Notes under the pieces: generated by a model
Databases searched by the model: none
What the model was told of the DNA's origin: nothing
The model's input: the letters and a program-made list of their open reading frames with translations, nothing else
Assembly (NCBI RefSeq): GCF_963675165.1
Contig: NC_087379.1
Span: 4,729,442-4,793,441, forward strand
Length of the DNA: 64,000 nt
Direction of reading: 5' to 3'
Origin: Halichondria panicea
Lineage: Eukaryota > Porifera > Demospongiae > Suberitida > Halichondriidae
Part shown: in pieces, positions 9,880 to 21,217 of the stretch
How the letters are laid out: every line of letters starts with the position of its first letter
Numbering within the stretch: position 1 is the first letter of the stretch
Made by a program: the position numbers and the translations under genes

Positions 9880-12713
9880 AATATCTATGCCACTTCATTG
9901 AGGGCGGCGATAAAATCAAGCTAATTTGGTGGTTGGGCTCAGATGCAACTAAAGTGATGGAACTCAGAGGAATCACTGATTGCTGTGTATATCGATTTCT
10001 CTGGATGGAACTGTTCCAGATTGTGCGATTGACCTGGAAAGGGTTAAGCTATAGGGCGTAAGCGCCCAAAATGATCAGCCCAACCCCGTTCACACGGAAG
10101 CATCTACGTCTGTCTCTCCTAGGGAGTCTACTCAGCTTGATAATTCAGAACATACTGACCCCAATCCAGGTACGCCACCTGAAGCTAGTCAGCAGGACTG
10201 ACCATCAGCAAATTGCCAATTCAACCTTATAAATGTGCGCAGTCTTGTGAACAAATTAGTCAATTTTCAATCGTTTATTTACTCATCCCTTCCTGACATT
10301 ATTGGTGTTACCGAGACCTGGCTGAACGATTCAATTATGAATAACGAAATATTGCCGTATGATTATTCCATCTATCGTAAGGACAGGGGGACTAGAGGAG
10401 GCGGAGTTCTACTTGCAATTCATAACTCAATTCCAACTAAGCTCATTGCCTCCCCCTCCAATCTAGAACTAATCGCCGTCGAATTAATCCAAATGAAATG
10501 TACTGTATGACTGTACTGTTTATCTTCCCCCTAATGTGGATCTTGATATTTTTACCAACACTCTATCATTTCTCATTCAATTGGCCAGGGAGTGTAATAT
10601 CTTAATCATTGGAGACTTTAATCGCCCAGACATAAATTGGTCTCTACTCTCAGGTTCCACTATCATGTCTAATCTTTTCTGTGATTTTGTTTTCGATTGT
10701 GACCTCACCCAGTTAGTCACTGTGCCTACCCATAATAGGGGAAACTGTATTGATTTATAGTCCTGTCATCAACTCCAGAAGCCGTTGGCTTGTTGAGTGT
10801 CTCCCCCAATGCACTATTATGTTCAGATCATTACCTAATCTCATTTCAGTTCTCAGCCAATGCCAGGCCAACTACTCCTGTTGCTAAGTGCCGCTATGTT
10901 CTTGACTATTCGAAACTAGACTATGAATGCTTGATGGTCTATTTGCTTAACTATGATTTCTCTTTGTGTATGAATTGTACGGATGTTGAGGCAGTTTGGT
11001 GTAATCTCCAATCGATCATTAACAATGCTATAAGTCAATTCGCACCTCTGGTCAAGCTTAAGGCAAACAAGAATTATCCAAAGTGGTACAATTATACCAC
11101 AAGGCATCTTATTCACCGTGTCCGCTCGTCCAGGAAGAAGGCCAGGCTTAATGGGTCTGTGTCAAACATATCTAAACTGGAGACTAACGAAAAAGAACTG
11201 TGTGATCATATGGAAATCTCAAAGTCAATATATGAAGCACAACTTGTTGAGGAGTTTGCCCACAATAACAGCAACAAAATCTACAAATACTATTCTGCAC
11301 AACAACAGCCTACCTGTAGCAATGCATCTTAATTCTCACACTGCCACATCTGATGCAGATAAAGCTTCTCTCTTTAATGAGTATTTCGAATCCGTCTACT
11401 CCAAGCCCACTTCTAATGCCTCCCATACCCACACTCTCTGTTCAGGAACCTCTGTTCTGAATAATATTGCCCTCTCAGATACTAAAGTATACACAGCCCT
11501 CTCAAGTTTGGATCCCTTCAAAGCCTCAGGAACTGACTGTATAGGTCCTAGGATACTAAAAACATGTTCCCTTGCTCTTTACCCAGTGGTAGATCATCTG
11601 TTTAAAATGAGCCTGGCTAGCTGCAAGCTCCCAAAGGAGTGGAAATTACACTGTATTATCCCAATATTTAAGTCTGGGGACAAAAGCCTTATTTCAAACT
11701 ACAGACTGATCTCCCTTCTATGCTCGATCTCTAAAGTTCTTGAAAGGATTGTGTATGATAAGGTGTTTGGGTTCATTGGCCAATCAATATCGAAATCTCA
11801 ATATGGATTCCTGAGAGACCACTCATGTCTGCAACAATTATTGTCTTTTTTGTCATGCGTTGAAAAGTCCCTAGAAAGTAGATGCCAGCACGACACGATA
11901 TATCTTGATTTCCAAAAAGCTTTTGATAGAGTACCCCATAAGGAACTTCTCTTCAAACTCCATGATCTGGGGATTACCGGCGCACTATGGAGATGGTTTA
12001 AAGAATACCTTACTTCTAGATGGCAAATGGTATCTATCAATGGTCACCACTCAACTCTCCTACCGGTATCTTCTGGAGTTCCGCAAGGAAGCATCCTTGG
12101 GCCTATGCTTTTCCTGGTTTATATCAATGATCTTCCTCTTTGGATTAACTTCTCTAATATTCATATCTTTGCAGATGATACCAAATGCTCTCATCAGATT
12201 AAATCAACCTCAGATACAATTGAACTACAATCGGACCTTGATATGCTGAATGATTGGAGCAACAAATGGAACCTCTCTTTTAATTCTCAAAAATGTGTGT
12301 TGTTGAAATTCTATAAAAACCCCTCACTCTTTATGAACTCATCTTACTTCCTTTCGGGGAGGCAGATCTCACCAAAGGAGAGTCACAGAGACCTGGGGAT
12401 AATACTGCAACAGGATCTGGGCTGGCACAAGCATTATGACAGCATTTCTGCTAAGGCATACAGACAACTAGGTTTACTCCGCCGTACTTTCTCATCTTCC
12501 AACTCAGTATATACCAAGAAGAAGCTATACCTGTCACTGGTTCGCTCACAGCTGTTGTATTGCTCACAACTTTGAAGACCAATGCTAGTCAAAGATACTG
12601 AAGCTCTGGAGCGTATTCAGAAGAGAGCAACAAAGTTTATCCTAGGCAACTCTGATGGTGACTACAAGGAAAGACTAGTGAAGTTAAAGTTACTTCCTCT
12701 GATGTACTCCTTC
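9880..12713 (+). pseudogene. Non-LTR retrotransposon ORF2 (endonuclease + reverse transcriptase), 5' part
   Basis: This is a CR1/L2/jockey-like LINE. An apurinic-type endonuclease domain (NVRSLVNK, PDIIGVTETWLN, GGGVLLAI, GDFNRPDINW, CSDHYLISF) spans about 10220-10860. A reverse transcriptase spans about 11480-12300 with YLDFQKAFD, SGVPQGSILGP and the catalytic FADDTK. The frame is broken at about 10500, at 10758-10765, near 11320 and by an in-frame stop at 12573, so it is dead. Translation continues after that stop (ERIQKRATKFILG) and halts where a DNA transposon enters at 12714. The missing C-terminus resumes at 21218. The 5' boundary is uncertain. Confidence 0.85.
12708..12713. repeat. Left 6-bp target duplication of the outer transposon (TCCTTC)
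   Basis: TCCTTC at 12708-12713 recurs at 21212-21217. With one copy and the inserted DNA left out, the LINE reading frame runs uninterrupted across the junction. Confidence 0.88.
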
Positions 12714-13007
12714 TATGGAAAGGTATTAGAGTCAAAATTCCCAGCCTGTTTGTCCCAGTAAATGTCCCGGTGTTTGTCCCAGTAAACGTCCCGGTAAAGG
12801 TCCCGGTACACGTCCCGGTACGCCCTTTTCCTGTGGGCAAGGTCGACCAGCCTCCCAAATTTGGGGTGTGGTTGTCACAGCCCAGCAATTACTGCTGCAT
12901 CCGATCCAGTTTTGTGCCCCGGCAAGTGTCCCGGTATGTGTCCCGGTAAGTGTCCCAGTATGTGCACCAGTAAGTGTCCCGGTATGTGTCCCGGTATGTG
13001 ACCCGGC

Positions 13008-13340
13008 TATGGAAGGGTATTAGAGTCAAAATTCCCAGCCTTTTTGTCCCAGTAAATGTCCCGGTGTTTGTCCCAGTAAACGTCCCGGTAAATGTCCCAG
13101 TACGTGTCCCGGTACGCCTTTTTCCTGTGGGCGAGGTCGACCAGCCTCCCAAATTTGAGGTGTGGTCGTCACAGCCCAGCAATTACTGTTGCATCCGCTC
13201 CAGTTTCTTGCCCCGGCAAGTGTCCCGGTATGTGTCCCGGCAAGTGTCCCGGTATGTGTCCCGGCAAGTGCCCCGGCATGTGTCCCGGCAAGTGCCCCGG
13301 CATGTGTCCCGGCAAGTGCCCCGGCAAGTGTCCCAGTACA
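13008..13340 (+). repeat. Left terminal inverted repeat with two decamer arrays
   Basis: The order is a 30-bp end, an array of TGTCCCGGTA/TGTCCCAGTA-type decamers, a conserved ~100-bp core (CCTGTGGGCGAGGTCGACC to GCATCCGCTCCAG), then a second array of GTGTCCCGGTAT/GTGCCCCGGCA units. The same module occurs at 12714-13007 and inverted at 19873-20167 and about 20915-21211. Open frames through these arrays are translation artefacts. Confidence 0.88.
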
Positions 13341-13426
13341 GTATTGCCATGAATAAATGCGGCGCAATCCCACGTGTGATTTTTGGGAGTGGTCACTAGG
13401 TGCTCTTTATTAAAAATCTAAAAGCA

Positions 13427-14937
13427 ATGATGGCAAGAAGAAGTAGCAGGCGCCCTTCAACTTACAACGTTCAGTCTATTCTTGAAAGAGTTAGTTTAGT
13501 GATTAGTGATGTTCTGGCAGCTGTCAGGGATTCCTCTGTGGAGGAACAGTCACATGGTTTACACTTGCGTTTGTCTGAAGCTCAAAGACAAATTGAACCT
13601 CTGTCTGAGGTGATTGGATCACACATACACCAAGAAATTACAAGTTCTTTGTCTGAAATGTTATCTATTCTATCGAGGCTCAGAGACAGCAGAAACTACC
13701 CGTACAGATCAAGTACTGTACGTGAAGGTATGTTGTAGTAAACGTATGACCACGTGTACATGTTAATAAAATTATGATTCCCTTGTTAATACTGTGTACT
13801 GTACTATTTGTAGGACAGAGGGGCAGGCCTTCAGTCGTCATATCTCGTCACCAGCTGGAAACTTTACTTGGGTTAAACTTCACTGTTCCCCAAATGGCCG
13901 AGCTGTTAGGAGTATCTGTTTCAACTTTGACAAGAAGATTACGTAACTACGGACTAAGTGTAAGGCAGATGTACTCGGACATCACTGATACACAGCTGAA
14001 TGAACTAGTGTCGAGGATAAACCATCAATTTCCAAGTGCTGGGTACAGAATCGGCTCAAGTTTGCTCCAAGGTATGGGACACAGAGTCCCTGAACGACGA
14101 GTCAGGGAGTCTATGCGACTTGTCGACCCAATATCAGTGGCGTACAGGCACAGTAGACGAGGTACTGTTGATCGACGCAGGTACAATGTACCATATCCTA
14201 ATGCTATGTGGCATGTGGATGGAAACATGAGTTTGATACGCTGGGGGTTTGTAGTGCATGGTGCAGTGGATGGTTACAGTCGACTCATTACCTACCTACA
14301 TTGCTCTACAAACAACTATGCAGAAACTGTTTTCAGTCAATTTATAACAGCTGGAGAACGATTTGGTTTCCCATCAAGAACGAGATCAGATATGGGTGGA
14401 GAGAATGTAGATTTAGCACACTTTATGGTATTGTTAAGAGGTGAAGGTCGTGGAAGTCATCTTACTGGTCGATCTATTCACAACCAAAGAATTGAACGCT
14501 TATGGCGAGATGTATTTGCAGATAGTTTGAGTTTGTTCTACCATCTTTTCTATTTTATGGAAAGCAGAGGAATACTAGACTGTGAAAACCCCGAACATTT
14601 GAATGCTTTACATTATGTGTATACACCTCGTATCAACGACAGCTTGCAAATGTTTTCTTCTGCTTGGAATATTCATCCTATAAGAACAGAACGAAATTTA
14701 ACTCCAATGCAATTGTGGGTGACTGGAATGATGCAGAATTTTGGCTCTAATCATTTACCAATTCGTGAACTGTTGAGTCATGAATCTAATGAGCTTAATG
14801 ACAGCACAGCATCTGAAAGTGAAAGTGAGAGTGAAGACTATTCACATAATTTGCATTCCACTGTTGATCCACTACAACATAGTGATGCCTGGGGTGTAGA
14901 TTTGTATGTTGATGCACTGTCCGTTCTGTCTAGCTAG
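13427..14937 (+). CDS. DDE integrase-like transposase
   Basis: Two exons, 13427-13727 and 13814-14937, join in phase 1 (REG|QRGRPS) across an 86-bp GT-AG intron and give 474 aa. The first ~100 residues are helical with no known domain. A helix-turn-helix-like segment follows (FTVPQMAELLGVSVSTLTRR), then an rve-type integrase core. The catalytic triad reads D in MWHVDGN, D in TRSDMGGEN and E in HNQRIERLWRDV, with 34 residues between the second D and the E. It ends in an acidic SESESESED tail. The protein should cut and join the ~300-bp termini of the surrounding element. Both exons are open and all three catalytic residues are present, so it may be active. I favour an IS3EU-type transposase; a Ginger-type one is less likely because there is no H2C2 finger and the duplication is 6 bp. 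Confidence 0.88.
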
Positions 14938-16219
14938 TTGATAAACATTTTGATGTTCAAGTCAATAATTATGTTAGTATAATTATGCTTAATATGTCAG
15001 TATGCTTCTTTAATCATCATTATGAACATAAGAGTGCCATGGGTAATGGATGGGCCATGATTGTTGCTAGACCATGCTTGCGCATGCGCACCGAAGCATA
15101 ATTACTGTTATGAAAAACACATAATTATGCCTCGAGGCGTAGCCGCACGAGGGATACGGTAAAGCTGACTGTGTGTGTGTCTGTCTGTGTGTGTGTGTGT
15201 GTGTATTCCAGCTATAACTGCTCAACGGTTGCAATGCGACGAAAACTAACAGCTTCTATAGGCTTCTAGCCACGTTCTCTTGGATTTTGATTCGTGGATT
15301 AGCAAACTAAAGCTTCTTTCTCGAGTTATGGCTAGTTTGACTCACATTGAAGGCTGTTGCAGTCTCTTCAGAATCTTTCATAGCATCATCTGTCCGCACA
15401 AACTTTCTATTCAACATATGAGTTAGCCTTGCACTAAAGCGCTAGCTTTTTGTTAGCTACAAGACTCAGAAAATACCTGTTAAAACAGCTAGCTAGCAGT
15501 AGCCATTTGTGAAATTGATCTCTTTGGACACACCCTTTAATTATTCCTATGGATGTAATGCGCATGCGCGCTCATTCCCCAGATCCAGATCCTCCTGGCA
15601 GAATCACATTTTTCTTGAGGGCCTGGTAAGCCACAAAACACTACTATAGATAACAATATGCATGTACACAAGTCTTTTCTTCTTAAATATTATAATTATA
15701 CACTGCATGAACTACAGATCCAATTTTCTTCTTTCTTGAGGTCCTGGTATTAAAGCCACATAATACAACAATAGATGCATGTAATAAGTCTTTTCTTCTC
15801 AGTGACTTTATATAGATAAGCTAACTTTATGAAATAATTATGCACTTCCGCTTATAATTAATTGAAAACAAAATCTTCTTCTTTGTTGCTTCCTAGATCC
15901 TTGAGGTCCTGGTATAAGCAGCCACAAAACACAACAATGATACCATAATTATACAATTGCAAGTCAGTTTTAGACAGATTATTTTATACACTTTTTCCTC
16001 TTCTATACTTTCTCTTCTATACTTTTGAGCGAAAGCAAATCATGGCGAGAGGCATTAGCACAGCGCCAGCTTGAACACTAGTTATAACATGAATGAACAT
16101 GTTCTGAAAAACACATGAAATGAACAGGTAGATGAATGAAATGAACAGGTAGATGAATGAGCATATATATATATATATACATTGTAAGAGCATGGCAATG
16201 GCAACATGTCAATAATTAG
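14938..16219. repeat. Repeat-rich centre of the inner transposon
   Basis: It contains a (TG)n tract (about 15168-15203), a dispersed repeat related to 32200-32500, 36420-36700 and 45150-45440, and three diverged tandem units of 130-150 bp, each starting CTTGAGG(T/G)CCTGGTA (about 15613, 15736 and 15900). A short TA run lies at 16165-16180. I see no gene. Confidence 0.6.
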
Positions 16220-19200
16220 TTACATGGCATCAAAGAACCAAGAAGCTGTGTTATTCAGGAGAGAGGAAAATTCGTTGGAAAATGTAGCATACGACTCATA
16301 TGTGACAGGCAGATGAAGCACAGTTGAGCAAGTGTTTGACGTAGGCCTACGAGAAAAACCTGTGAGCTGGTTGAAATTGACTAGGATTTTCTTGTGAGAA
16401 CACACAGAAAAACCTGTAACGAAGCTAAGAAAATGGGCAAGCATTTCAGGGGCAAGGGAATTAATGAAACGTCGAAGAAAATCAAAAGTTGCATCTTCTC
16501 GTAAGTTGGTAATGGTAGGCTCCTCAATCATCGCCAAAACACGAGGGACAGACGGCTGAAGAGCATCATACAAATGATCGACAACTTGTGGACTAAATCT
16601 CTTCCACACACTGGGGTGTGCATCCAACATTCCTCGTCTGATCTCACACAAAGCGTAGAAGGGCTTTGTTACAAGTACATGCCAAGCAGCTTGCTTAAGC
16701 AAAGAATTCAAAGTATCGACAGTAGGAATAGCAAAAACATTGAACCTACTTAACATAGGGGTTATAACGGTTTTCAGAGCCTCTTCGTTTGGAGCTTTTA
16801 CTGCTTGCACTTCGAACGGGTCAATAAATCTTGAAAAAGACTTCCGGAGCTCTTCATCACAAATCACACTCTGTCCACAAATTATGATCTTTACTGAAAC
16901 AATGGACAGATTAATCGGGAAATATCCAGTCATAACGTATCCATGAGAAATAAATCTCCCAATATGGTAGAAGGTCGACTGGTTATTTGGCAGTACTTGA
17001 GGCACATGGTCCAGGGCACCATCCATTAAAGCGCCATATTCGGTCCAAAAGCAGTTGCATAGCTCTCGTCTTAATCCACCACCGTCAACGCCACGCTCCA
17101 TCAAAAACTTCACCTTCAATTCCATGTTGTGGAGGTTGGGATGACTGGAATACGCATTGATTACACTACTAACGACTTCGTGGCGATGTGTGTGCAGAAA
17201 GTGCACTCCATTGTCTAGTAAATGCGATCTCACACTTGCTCGTTGTTCATCAACGTTAGACAATCGACTGAAATGTACATACATGTAAAACAGCTATTAT
17301 GGAAAATGTAATAGCCTTGCCTGTTGGTAGTGTCAACGTCAGTTAAATCAATCACCACACTTCCCATCTCCACCTCAACCTCCTACATAGAAGAAGATGA
17401 TTTTTATTATTGGAAATATACTGAGTATATAATTTTTTATATACCCACATTTACTGGTGAATCTGCTCGCAGAAAAACAACACTCTCTAACCTCTCTCTA
17501 TCTGTTTGAGTCAAGGGAGGGGTGGTAGGTAACTGGTTCAACTTCAACTTCAGTAACCTACACGTACAGAGCACAATAAAAAAAATTTGGCAAAGGCTAA
17601 TCGTGATCATACTCTGTTTTCGCCAATGAGAACTATGAATGCCGAAAGTCCCAGCTGTGAGATGGGTCCAGTACCAGTAGTGGGAAGTTCAGTCGGAACA
17701 GGACCATCGCTGACAAGAACCCGAAATTGACGGGGATTGATTGATTCATGCGAACCAACAAAGGAGCGGATAGCCTAGTTTAAAAAAATCACAAAAAAGC
17801 ATCAGGAAATTAATTTTAGGTGTGACGAGATACATGCACACAAAATTATTCACTACACTTACATTAATTGGATCAGACAATAAAAATTGCCTAGAATTTC
17901 TAGATCCATCAGGAAATCTGATTCTCGTGTGTAACACTCCCATCGTGCCAGGAGGAGGCTCAGCTGGAACTCTGTCCGCCAGATCTCTGCGAATTCTCCG
18001 ATGCCACTATACACATGTGTACATGTACATAATTTTAAACAAATTTTAAACAACCACAATCATATTATGCATACCTCAACCACTCGTCTTTGTCTTTCAA
18101 CAGACACCACTTGCTCAATTTTCTGATCCATTTCATCATCCTCAGTCATTTGACGGGATATCAACCTCTGTCGATCCTAAAAATTAATAATAATAATCAC
18201 ACACACAAAACACAGAATGAATACCTTTTCACGGTCAACACGCAAGCTAATGTCATAGGCCTGATCTTGCTCAGCAATTATTTCTCTGGACTGCAATTAT
18301 TAATTTTCATGAAAACTAACCGTAACACAATAATTTACATTAGTCACTAAGTAACGAACACATCCAGAAACTCACAACCATCAAAGATTCTCTCTCCTGA
18401 GAAGGCGACCGCGATTGTTCCTCTTCTGTGTCCATTTCTCCTGTATCCATTTGCTCATAAAGGTGATCTAATCGCAAGAAATTAATCTAGTTAACAGTAA
18501 TAGAGTATGTAATAGTTACTGCACCATAATTATAATCAGCCAGACTTCCTCTCACACCAGAAGAAGGCTCGGTGGCACTTCCACTTGCACTGGGAGGAGG
18601 CTCGGTCACACTTCCTCTCACACTGGGAGGAGGCTCAGTGGCAGTCTCACTGAGAGGCTCGACGGCACTTCCTCTCACACTGGGAGGAGGCTCGGTGGCA
18701 GTCTCACTGAGAGGCTCGACGGCACTTCCTCTCATACCACTTCCTCTCACACTGAGAGGAGGCTCGGTGGCAGTCTCACTGAGAGCACTTCCTCTCACAC
18801 CACTTCCTCTCACACTGGGAGGAGGCTCAGTGGCAGTCTCACTGAGAGGCTCGGTGGCACTTTCAGTGCACACATACATATGGTCTGTAATTTCAGACAT
18901 CCTAAGGCTTCTATTACATTTGTAGCAATCACGTCTGCTGGCTGGTGTGTAGGCCTATATTGTGAGTACAATATCCATAACTTTATAATAAAAACAAAAA
19001 CCACAGAATGAGATTGATGTACAGTAAATCATACCTGAAGTTGTGATACACGTACTCCCACTAGAGTAGACAACGGGCGAATATATAAACGACCTTTTCT
19101 GCCCACAGCTTCCTTCAGCATTTTTACGGTGAAATATGGTTTGAAAGGTCTCACGGACTCCATCTCGGGAGAATAACTGGTATCATTTACGTGTAGGGGA

Positions 19201-19757
19201 ACAATCACTTTGTTACCAAGGCCGGCTGCTCTACAAAACTGGTAGGGGATACCAGCCATCATTGGATACAGGCACAGTATCAAGAAATGTAGCTCTTCAG
19301 CATTAACAAAGTCTAATTCCAGTGGGTCCTCATCTCTCGTAAACCATAACGTTCCAAGGCCATCTCGACAAAGGTAGTCTAGCTCAATTTTACTTGGTAC
19401 TTGATGTGTTGATGGTCCAGCTAGGCAACATGGTACAATTTTCCAGCATCCTGGAGCTTTCCTTTGCTTAGGAGCTCGAGCAGAATTCGATCGTCCCAAA
19501 AAAGGAAATCTGTCACTAAGCTCCCTGGGTCGACTTGAGTTACCTACAACACTTAAACCCCTTCTCACTGCCACATTCAATCTGTCTGAGGCAGATGACA
19601 GTCCGCTTGAAGGAAATCTTTTAGATCTAGCAGGTTCTGCAATGAAATCGTCATCCGATGAATCAGTAGCAGTAGCAGTAGTAGCACCTTCTGCAATTGA
19701 TTGTAGAAGTCTAGAAGAGGCGAGACGCTTTCTTTTGGGTTTATTCAAACTCAGCAT
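16220..19757 (-). CDS. Transposon-borne UBX + HECT ubiquitin-ligase-like protein
   Basis: Exons, some edges approximate: 19757-19035, 18954-~18525, ~18469-18367, ~18292-18224, ~18177-18075, ~18000-17868, ~17775-17590, ~17543-17455, 17382-17321 (GC donor) and 17267-16220, giving roughly 970-980 aa. The first exon is basic and then globular (GIPYQFCRAAGLGNKVIVPL). The second has a C2HC finger-like CYKCNRSLRMSEITDHMYVC, then repeated SETATEPPPSVRGS units. Next come charged helical exons (EQDQAYDISLRVDREK) of the kind that precede UBX domains. The UBX-like domain itself is TRIRFPDGSRNSRQFLLSD plus FRVLVSDGPVPTEL. The last exon is a HECT domain with GVDGGGLRREL near its start and the candidate catalytic cysteine in SNTCSTVLHLP, 40-45 residues from the C-terminus. 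HECT enzymes accept ubiquitin on that cysteine and pass it to substrates. The start at 19757 could be preceded by another exon. Confidence 0.7.
18527..18860 (-). repeat. Coding minisatellite in the HECT-gene exon
   Basis: Repeats of 30-54 bp encode TATEPPPSVRGS- and AVEPLSETA-type units without breaking the frame. Such arrays vary in copy number between alleles. Confidence 0.7.
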
Positions 19758-19872
19758 CCTACATGTAAACACAATTTATTCTTTATCTATAAGCTGCCAC
19801 GAGGCAATCACTTCAGTGCGCATGCGCAGCGCAATATTATAAATCAGTGCTGTGTTATTCTGGGAAGTGCCA

Positions 19873-20167
19873 TTTGCCGGGGCACATACCGGAACACTTG
19901 CCGGGACACATACCGGGACACTTGCCGGGGCACTTGCCGGGACACATACCGGGACACTTGCCGGGGCAAGAAACTGGAGCGGATGCAACAGTAATTGCTG
20001 GGCTGTGACGACCACACCTCAAATTTGGGAGGCTGGTCGACCTCGCCCACAGGAAAAAGGCGTACCGGGACATGTACTGGGACGTTTACCGGGACATTTA
20101 CCGGGACAAACACTGGGACAAATACTGGGACAAAAGCTGGGAATTTTGACTCTAATACCCTTCCATA
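19873..20167 (-). repeat. Right terminal inverted repeat of the inner transposon
   Basis: The inverse complement of the 13008-13340 module, with the same core and decamer arrays. It ends at 20167 in TTCCATA, directly followed by the duplicated CCCGGC. Confidence 0.85.
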
Positions 20168-20264
20168 CCCGGCATGTGTCCCGGCACATGTCCCAGTACC
20201 AGAATAAAAATTGCGACAAGTTAACTCATGGAATGCGCATGCGCAATGGAAGTGAATGCCTCGT

Positions 20265-20445
20265 GCCATAAAAGAGAGCCTTGTGGAGGCTAAGAAGATA
20301 CGAAGAACCTAGCCTTGTGAGGCTACAAAAATGCAGCCTTGTGAGGGGCTAAGAAGACAAAGACTTGTGAGGCTAAGAAAACACTAAGAACCTAGCCATG
20401 TGAGGCTACAAAAATGCAGCCTTGTGAGGGGCTAAGAAGACCCAA
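20265..20445 (+). repeat. Tandem repeat in the outer transposon
   Basis: Two units of roughly 85-100 bp built from AGCCTTGTGAGGGGCTAAGA and GAACCTAGCC(T/A)TGTGAGGC. Non-coding. Confidence 0.7.
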
Positions 20446-20914
20446 ACTTCTGATTTGATTTTACACATAAACTTATGACTGTTGTTTATGTTTTGTCTCA
20501 AGAGGATCGAGGGTTGTAGTGAGGCAGCTGCCTATTATACAAGACCACTCCCTTTTTAGTCATGTAAAACGGATAATTATACACAAAATATGAAGCCAGT
20601 GTTAAATTTAAAGTTAATAGATTGGAGTACAAAGGAGTATGAAACAGCACTTGAAATGGGTGGTATTAAAGTTGTTCTACTTGGTGTTCCTCTTCATAGA
20701 AGTTACTCCAGGACTTGCTGCACTAATCTATGTGTATAGATGTACGTCAGTGTCTTCACTTCTACTGTACTGTCACATACATCATACTGTACTGTCATGC
20801 ACATACATCAAGACACTAATTATTATAAATTATATAATGCACACTAGGCTAATCACTCCCTAAACTCTAAAGTGTATTGCCTCGAATAAATACCGCATGA
20901 AGTTTTGCGTTTTA

Positions 20915-21211
20915 TTCACTGGGACACATACCGGGACACTTACTGGGACACATACCGGGACACTTACTGGGACACATACCGGGACACTTACTGGGACACA
21001 TACCAGGACACTTTCTGGGGCAAAGAACTGAAGCAGATGCAGCAGTAATTGCTGGGCTGTGACGACCACACCCTAAATTTGGGAGGCTGGGTCGACCTCG
21101 CCCACAGAAAAAAGGCATTACCGGGACGTGTGCCGGGACATTTACCGGGACAAACACCGGGACATTTACTGGGACAAAAGCTGGGAATTTTGACTCTAAT
21201 ACCCTTCCATA
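20915..21211 (-). repeat. Right terminal inverted repeat of the outer transposon
   Basis: Starts with an array of GGGACACATACC/GGGACACTTACT units, then the shared core (inverse of CACAGCCCAGCAATTACTG), then TTACCGGGAC-type units. It ends in GACTCTAATACCCTTCCATA at 21211 and is followed by TCCTTC. Confidence 0.85.
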
Positions 21212-21217
21212 TCCTTC

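Follow-up and report, generated by a model that had tools for sequence, protein, structure and literature searches.

The two-gene element in the window

We analysed a 64,000-nucleotide stretch of the genome of the sponge Halichondria panicea (contig NC_087379.1, positions 4,729,442 to 4,793,441 of the forward strand), which is called the window here. It contains a complete IS3EU-type transposon with a DDE integrase gene and, tail to tail with it on the opposite strand, a gene for a HECT-type ubiquitin ligase (Table 1). An earlier reading of the letters of this DNA (the original prediction) had described a single mobile element holding both genes, and this was borne out by the terminal inverted repeats, the target duplications and other two-gene copies. 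Its framing as one unusual element was too narrow, as the gene pair is the usual layout of the superfamily in this genome. At the level of sequence, the two genes form one mobile unit, are retained together and have descended together, and the ligase keeps a conserved active-site motif. In this genome the HECT gene is best seen as a second gene that this IS3EU group has conserved, not as a one-off cargo, because the layout is convergent, the two genes are co-retained, duplications flank them in five families and their trees agree.

The element starts with TATGGAAGGGTATTAGAGTC, and its other terminus is the reverse complement of TATGGAAGGGTATTAGAGTC. The terminal inverted repeats are about 295 bp long, and the arms at 13003-13302 and 19875-20172 are 93% alike. 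By sequence comparison, the ends, the inverted repeats of about 300 bp and the exact CCCGGC duplication are all as they had been described. The CCCGGC duplication alone is weak evidence, because it lies within the 12-bp CCCGG-period array of an older copy, and therefore the duplications of other copies with the same ends were examined. Five other short copies (1.3-2.1 kb) have exact and mutually unrelated 6-bp duplications (GTAGAT, GTCTTA, GAATAG, CTCTTG and TAGGAG). The host copy of the window element is a sixth short copy (12714..21211), about 1.33 kb long without the insert. Judging from the translated flanks, this short copy reads as itself inserted in a LINE-like (long interspersed nuclear element) reverse transcriptase gene, which would make a double nest. 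The spacer between the two genes holds a dispersed repeat of about 180 bp (15122-15299), which is 83% like a stretch in locus L052 of family C, described below.

Table 1. Features of the element and its surroundings (positions in the window)
Feature	Position	Strand	Basis or remark
Older short non-autonomous relative, left part	12714..13007	.	own duplication TCCTTC at 12708-12713
Left copy of 6-bp target duplication CCCGGC	13002..13007	.	within CCCGG-period array
Two-gene IS3EU-type element, complete	13008..20167	.	7,160 bp; TATGG..CCATA ends; terminal inverted repeats and target duplication
Left terminal inverted repeat	13008..13302	.	12-bp CCCGG-type subterminal repeats
Integrase exon 1	13427..13727	+	gene model; GT-AG intron 13728-13813
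Integrase exon 2, HTH and rva_4 DDE core	13814..14937	+	Pfam rva_4 3.2e-85; alignment
HECT gene exon 10, entire HECT domain; catalytic-type Cys938 at 16328-16330	16220..17267	-	Pfam, PDB profile and fold searches
HECT gene exon 9, GC donor	17321..17382	-	gene model
HECT gene exon 8	17455..17547	-	gene model; weak acceptor CTGAAG
HECT gene exon 7, UBX second half	17613..17774	-	
HECT gene exon 6, UBX first half	17863..18006	-	Pfam UBX 6.4e-7
HECT gene exon 5	18075..18176	-	gene model
HECT gene exon 4, EQDxAYxxSLxxDREK motif, found preceding UBX of FAF1	18225..18290	-	
HECT gene exon 3	18376..18467	-	gene model
HECT gene exon 2, C2HC finger (C-x2-C-x11-H-x3-C) and low-complexity S/P/E repeat tract	18525..18954	-	
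HECT gene exon 1, N-terminal domain common to families E1 and E2	19035..19757	-	phmmer 1e-31 to 1e-34
Right terminal inverted repeat	19875..20167	.	
Right copy of 6-bp target duplication CCCGGC	20168..20173	.	
Older short non-autonomous relative, right part	20168..21211	.	TCCTTC at 21212-21217

The integrase and the ligase

The integrase gene consists of two exons and encodes 474 aa, with matches to Pfam rva_4 and HTH_8. The integrase-type transposase with a full catalytic triad held up, as D236 (14218-14220), D293 (14389-14391) and E328 (14494-14496) are intact; across 10 aligned sequences the second D and the E are invariant and the first D is nearly so. There are zero cysteines in the 235 translated residues preceding D236, and thus no HHCC zinc-binding domain; the HTH_8 match is found there instead. 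The integrase profile had no match in PDB at 0.001.

The antisense gene was modelled with ten exons (19757..16220) encoding 973 aa, free of stops and frameshifts. Its exon borders are predicted from the genomic sequence, with GT-AG at eight of the nine introns and GC-AG at one, and two borders are tentative since their splice sites are weak (exon 2 donor, exon 8 acceptor). A spliced antisense gene with UBX-like and HECT domains had been proposed; both domains were confirmed by Pfam, while the proposed extent was too short, 16220-17267 being merely the last exon of a gene that reaches 19757.

That the last exon encodes a HECT domain is indicated by several searches. The Pfam HECT model scored 28.0 bits with the frame of this exon (16220-17267), the interval in which a lack of HECT similarity had been named as grounds for rejection, and 24.4 bits with the joined protein, against a cut-off of 23.9; relatives scored up to 47.8 bits. 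A profile built from nine HECT exons (that of the window and relatives) matched mainly HECT ligases in PDB, with HUWE1 as the best (8.7e-10) besides TOM1, AREL1 and E6AP, and the alignment to E6AP covers positions 4-309 of 334, thus both lobes. The predicted model of the domain has a low overall confidence (mean predicted local distance difference test score, pLDDT, of 58), the C-lobe being its best part; all of the 50 matches listed by Foldseek were HECT proteins, and structural alignment of the predicted C-lobe gave Z of about 10 at 2.3-3 A. The TC motif lines up with its counterpart in HUWE1, and the T and C of the element's motif (the latter being Cys938) are invariant in 11 copies, the others of which are 16-52% identical to the window's. 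Such an invariant cysteine among deeply diverged copies strongly suggests that the ligase is catalytic.

From N- to C-terminus, the protein comprises the N-terminal domain, a C2HC finger, the repeat tract, UBX and HECT. The first of these has a predicted model of low confidence (pLDDT 47). The N-terminal domain, finger and UBX also occur in families E1 and E2, where the N-terminal domain is 44-48% identical to that of the window, while in family F the finger is present, the N-terminal region is similar and no UBX was seen. The finger spacing is common to W (the family of the window element), E1, E2 and F; as a candidate ubiquitin-binding finger of the UBZ4 type, it scored 14.6 bits with zf_UBZ, below the cut-off of 25.6. 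The UBX domain was identified by Pfam with 29.9 bits against a cut-off of 21, and together with the preceding motif its nearest PDB match was FAF1 (1.9e-5).

Compared with the HECT E3 ligases HUWE1, TOM1, AREL1 and E6AP, the element protein shares the two-lobed HECT domain, an E.GVDGGG-type motif in the N-lobe, the TC active-site motif and the C-terminal position of the domain, but differs in combining it with the N-terminal domain, the C2HC finger and a FAF1-like UBX. The tail of the window's HECT clade is without GFG, whereas GFG is present in families F, G and H. With FAF1 and other UBX cofactors of p97, the protein shares UBX and the preceding EQDxAYxxSLxxDR motif; the difference is that UBX is fused to HECT here and that the FPR loop contacting p97 is not conserved.

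Pairing of integrase and HECT genes in the genome

To describe the pair genome-wide, we surveyed 131.5 Mb in 39 contigs. Similarity to the window's HECT gave 34 clusters, 30 of which lie within 10 kb of an integrase, and by this count 30 of 95 integrases have a HECT gene. The Pfam HECT model recovered HECT also beside integrases that were negative by similarity, and placed one within 5 kb at 57 of 96 integrase loci, 51 of them convergent. When further family queries were added to the Pfam model, a convergent HECT within 5 kb was present at 64 of the 96 loci, while a divergent one was found at none and one in the same orientation at about six. HECT is also present in the family at C7:6700358. 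Random placement of the 87 HECT clusters (2,000 trials) averaged 0.62 of the 96 loci and never exceeded 5; this control ignores the clustering of transposons, of which the orientation bias of 64 to 0 is independent. Copies of the same family are not independent events, and the independent units are roughly ten families.

Some families could also be delimited as mobile units. Besides the W copies, end patterns gave 22 both-ended elements in families B, F and G. Among the both-ended elements of W, B, F and G mapped genome-wide, all 22 with an integrase keep HECT, a single one carries HECT alone, and both genes are missing from five short W copies; the outer W copy in the nest of the window was not counted separately. 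Copies with the same ends and without HECT, which the original prediction had named as a possible refutation, fail to refute it, as such copies are short and have no integrase either. Eighteen two-gene elements of five families (W, E1, B, F and G) have exact duplications of 6-7 bp next to their TATGG..CCATA ends. The duplications are CCCGGC at the window element, ACGGTT in E1, CGGCCT at B1, CATACTA (7 bp) at an F element on C1 and CTTTTT at a G element on C7, together with those of 13 more elements, five in F, five in G (one of 7 bp) and three in B. As exceptions, one G copy matches at 5 of 6 bases, and a matching duplication is absent from one G copy, from two B copies and also from the B copy at C1:8832449-8844419. 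For families C and D, ends were searched and not found, and family C showed none of the TATGG type.

Several families have structures of their own. The family B elements (12-29 kb; on C13, C9, C1, C8 and C16) are near-palindromic, each inverted arm having an integrase gene and a HECT C-terminus, and several show clean 6-bp duplications at 12-27 kb. For instance, the inverted arms of the copy at C13:4271500-4284500 (L046 and L047) are about 2.9 kb long and 99.5% alike. In family C (L052 and L053, on C4 and C15) integrase and HECT have the same orientation, and a stretch of 7.5 kb is 99% alike at the two places. A G-family copy at C12:4328925-4331803 (L101/L102) has a HECT match and no integrase match, with an exact flanking duplication (CTCCCT).

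Joint descent of the two genes

For eight families, pairwise distances of the integrase core and of the HECT C-lobe are correlated (Mantel r 0.62, exact p 0.004). The two trees have the clades B+C (support 95/98) and (F+G)+H (93/100) in common, with 87-100% support overall for the shared clades and with deeper branches not resolved by the short C-lobe alignment. These sequence data fit an acquisition of HECT that predates the separation of the families, after which HECT and integrase descended jointly. Between families the C-lobe is 41-79% different, against 34-56% for the integrase core, and the HECT frame stays open and alignable despite saturated synonymous sites (dN, the nonsynonymous divergence, 0.49-0.61; dS, the synonymous one, not estimable). 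Comparison of dN/dS between copies, as the original prediction had suggested, is weak: there are almost no changes within families, and only E3/E4 could be used, a pair of partly broken copies with values of about 0.5 (NG86) to 0.8 (YN00).

Relation to IS3EU and other known systems

The IS3EU/GingerRoot superfamily has TA..TA ends, mostly 6-bp duplications and an integrase-like DDE core without the HHCC zinc domain (PMC10045372), and families in rust fungi have TAYGG..CCRTA ends (PMC12730594). The window element shares the termini, the duplication length and the DDE core without HHCC with the former, and its TATGG..CCATA fits the pattern of the latter. More widely, TA..TA termini are found in W, E1, B, F and G (as TATGG..CCATA), and the exact duplication is 6 bp in most both-ended copies and 7 bp in two. 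The assignment to IS3EU, proposed before from the letters alone, agrees with the ends, the duplication length and the integrase, which are all of this type. The difference is the convergent and conserved HECT gene, which is unmentioned in the accessible IS3EU literature; likewise, we found no description of an IS3EU element with a ubiquitin ligase there, with most subscription papers, preprints and Repbase beyond reach.

Accessory genes are already known in IS3EU. In the fungal elements an alpha-kinase gene faces the transposase gene, and some have an added TET/JBP gene for which an anti-silencing role was proposed; TET genes of fungi move between transposons that are not related (PMC12730594). 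The sponge elements resemble them in that the second gene is opposite to the transposase and that the enzymes modify molecules of the host or the element, but there it is an alpha-kinase with shuffling TET/JBP genes (PMC12730594) and here a HECT gene co-diverging with the integrase.

Possible roles of the ligase

As a rule, a DNA transposon codes for its transposase and no more than a helper protein. The original prediction had proposed that the ligase could mark host repressors, the transposase or the transposition complex for turnover, and all three are candidate targets here. The candidate of a single unusual element was ruled out, as the ends, duplications and co-divergence of other copies involve the same gene pair. 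A chance neighbour or host gene was rejected as well, in view of the layout, the end-flanked copies with duplications, the co-retention and the co-divergence. The related idea of a host gene captured once, or a mere neighbour, with no role in transposition could draw on the many HECT genes in this genome that have no integrase neighbour (unpaired clusters). It is nevertheless highly improbable, since at least five families with different ends hold HECT between their inverted repeats with duplications, and HECT stays open and alignable at saturated synonymous sites.

Our preferred explanation, to which we give an even chance, is an autonomous transposon of the IS3EU type that in this host regularly carries the DDE integrase together with a tail-to-tail HECT ligase, the latter acting on the element's own transposition complex. 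This action is favoured because HECT behaves like core machinery, being always kept and co-diverging, and such behaviour suits a machinery part better than an optional cargo. The ligase would ubiquitylate proteins on or near the complex, most likely the DNA-bound integrase after strand transfer. The finger and UBX might connect the tagged complex with ubiquitin and perhaps also with the p97/VCP segregase (we give this p97 step low weight), and the complex would be dismantled or its amount limited. This would be the counterpart, in eukaryotes, of how ClpX acts on the Mu transpososome. A wider claim is distinctly doubtful: all of an animal IS3EU lineage would rely on its own HECT ligase, which would mark the DNA-bound integrase for extraction once strand transfer has taken place, so that the element itself provides a ubiquitin-dependent step of disassembly. 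Several observations weigh against action on the complex or its generality. Twenty-six of the 96 integrase loci have no HECT, and although these are mostly short fragments, several keep at least 750 bp of the integrase. UBX was seen in W, E1 and E2 only, so that an essential role across the whole group is unsupported. Read by eye from the translations, the FPR loop of UBX is replaced by DGPVPTEL (W), DVPHWRVL (E1) and DTANPREVP (E2), and binding of p97 is doubtful because this loop is not conserved. In one related contig from a bin of sponge symbionts (L064, see below), no HECT was seen in the roughly 1 kb that the contig covers downstream of the integrase, which neither supports nor refutes a core gene outside this host.

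Anti-silencing genes of the TET/JBP, SET or VANC type occur in other transposons, and in the main rival explanation the ligase would likewise counter silencing or restriction, by sending host repressors of transposons to the proteasome. The proposed role of the fungal TET/JBP genes (PMC12730594) speaks for it, and so does the greater divergence of HECT than of the integrase core, as expected of a protein in a race with the host. However, fungal TET shuffles (PMC12730594), whereas HECT stays with the integrase and the trees agree, and no host target was identified; on balance we consider this role possible but unlikely. Alternatively, the ligase could lower the integrase level and hold the copy number tolerable, as a brake without action on assembled complexes. 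The same co-retention data would fit such self-limitation, as would the G-family copy with HECT, no integrase match and a clean duplication. A brake, however, should easily be lost from a selfish element, and yet no both-ended element keeps the integrase without HECT, which makes self-limitation improbable compared with action on the transposition complex.

If a ubiquitin ligase has stayed with the integrase as a lasting partner across such deep divergence, it would bring ubiquitin signalling into the transposition cycle or into the conflict between transposon and host. Such elements would also readily supply genomes of this kind with multi-copy HECT genes, and the intact copies and many natural variants within one genome make a directly testable system.

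Relatives outside this genome

Searches of IMG/VR and phages found no relative. The multi-copy "G2/M phase-specific E3 ligase-like" genes of fish and corals may be relatives. Three contigs of 3-4 kb (L064-L066: LWTN01000118, 139 and 127) in the Cycloclasticus bin of a Poecilosclerida sponge encode relatives of the integrase. As these are IS3EU integrases of the animal type, the contigs are probably sponge DNA in the bin. One of them (L065) also encodes a Gypsy-like polyprotein.

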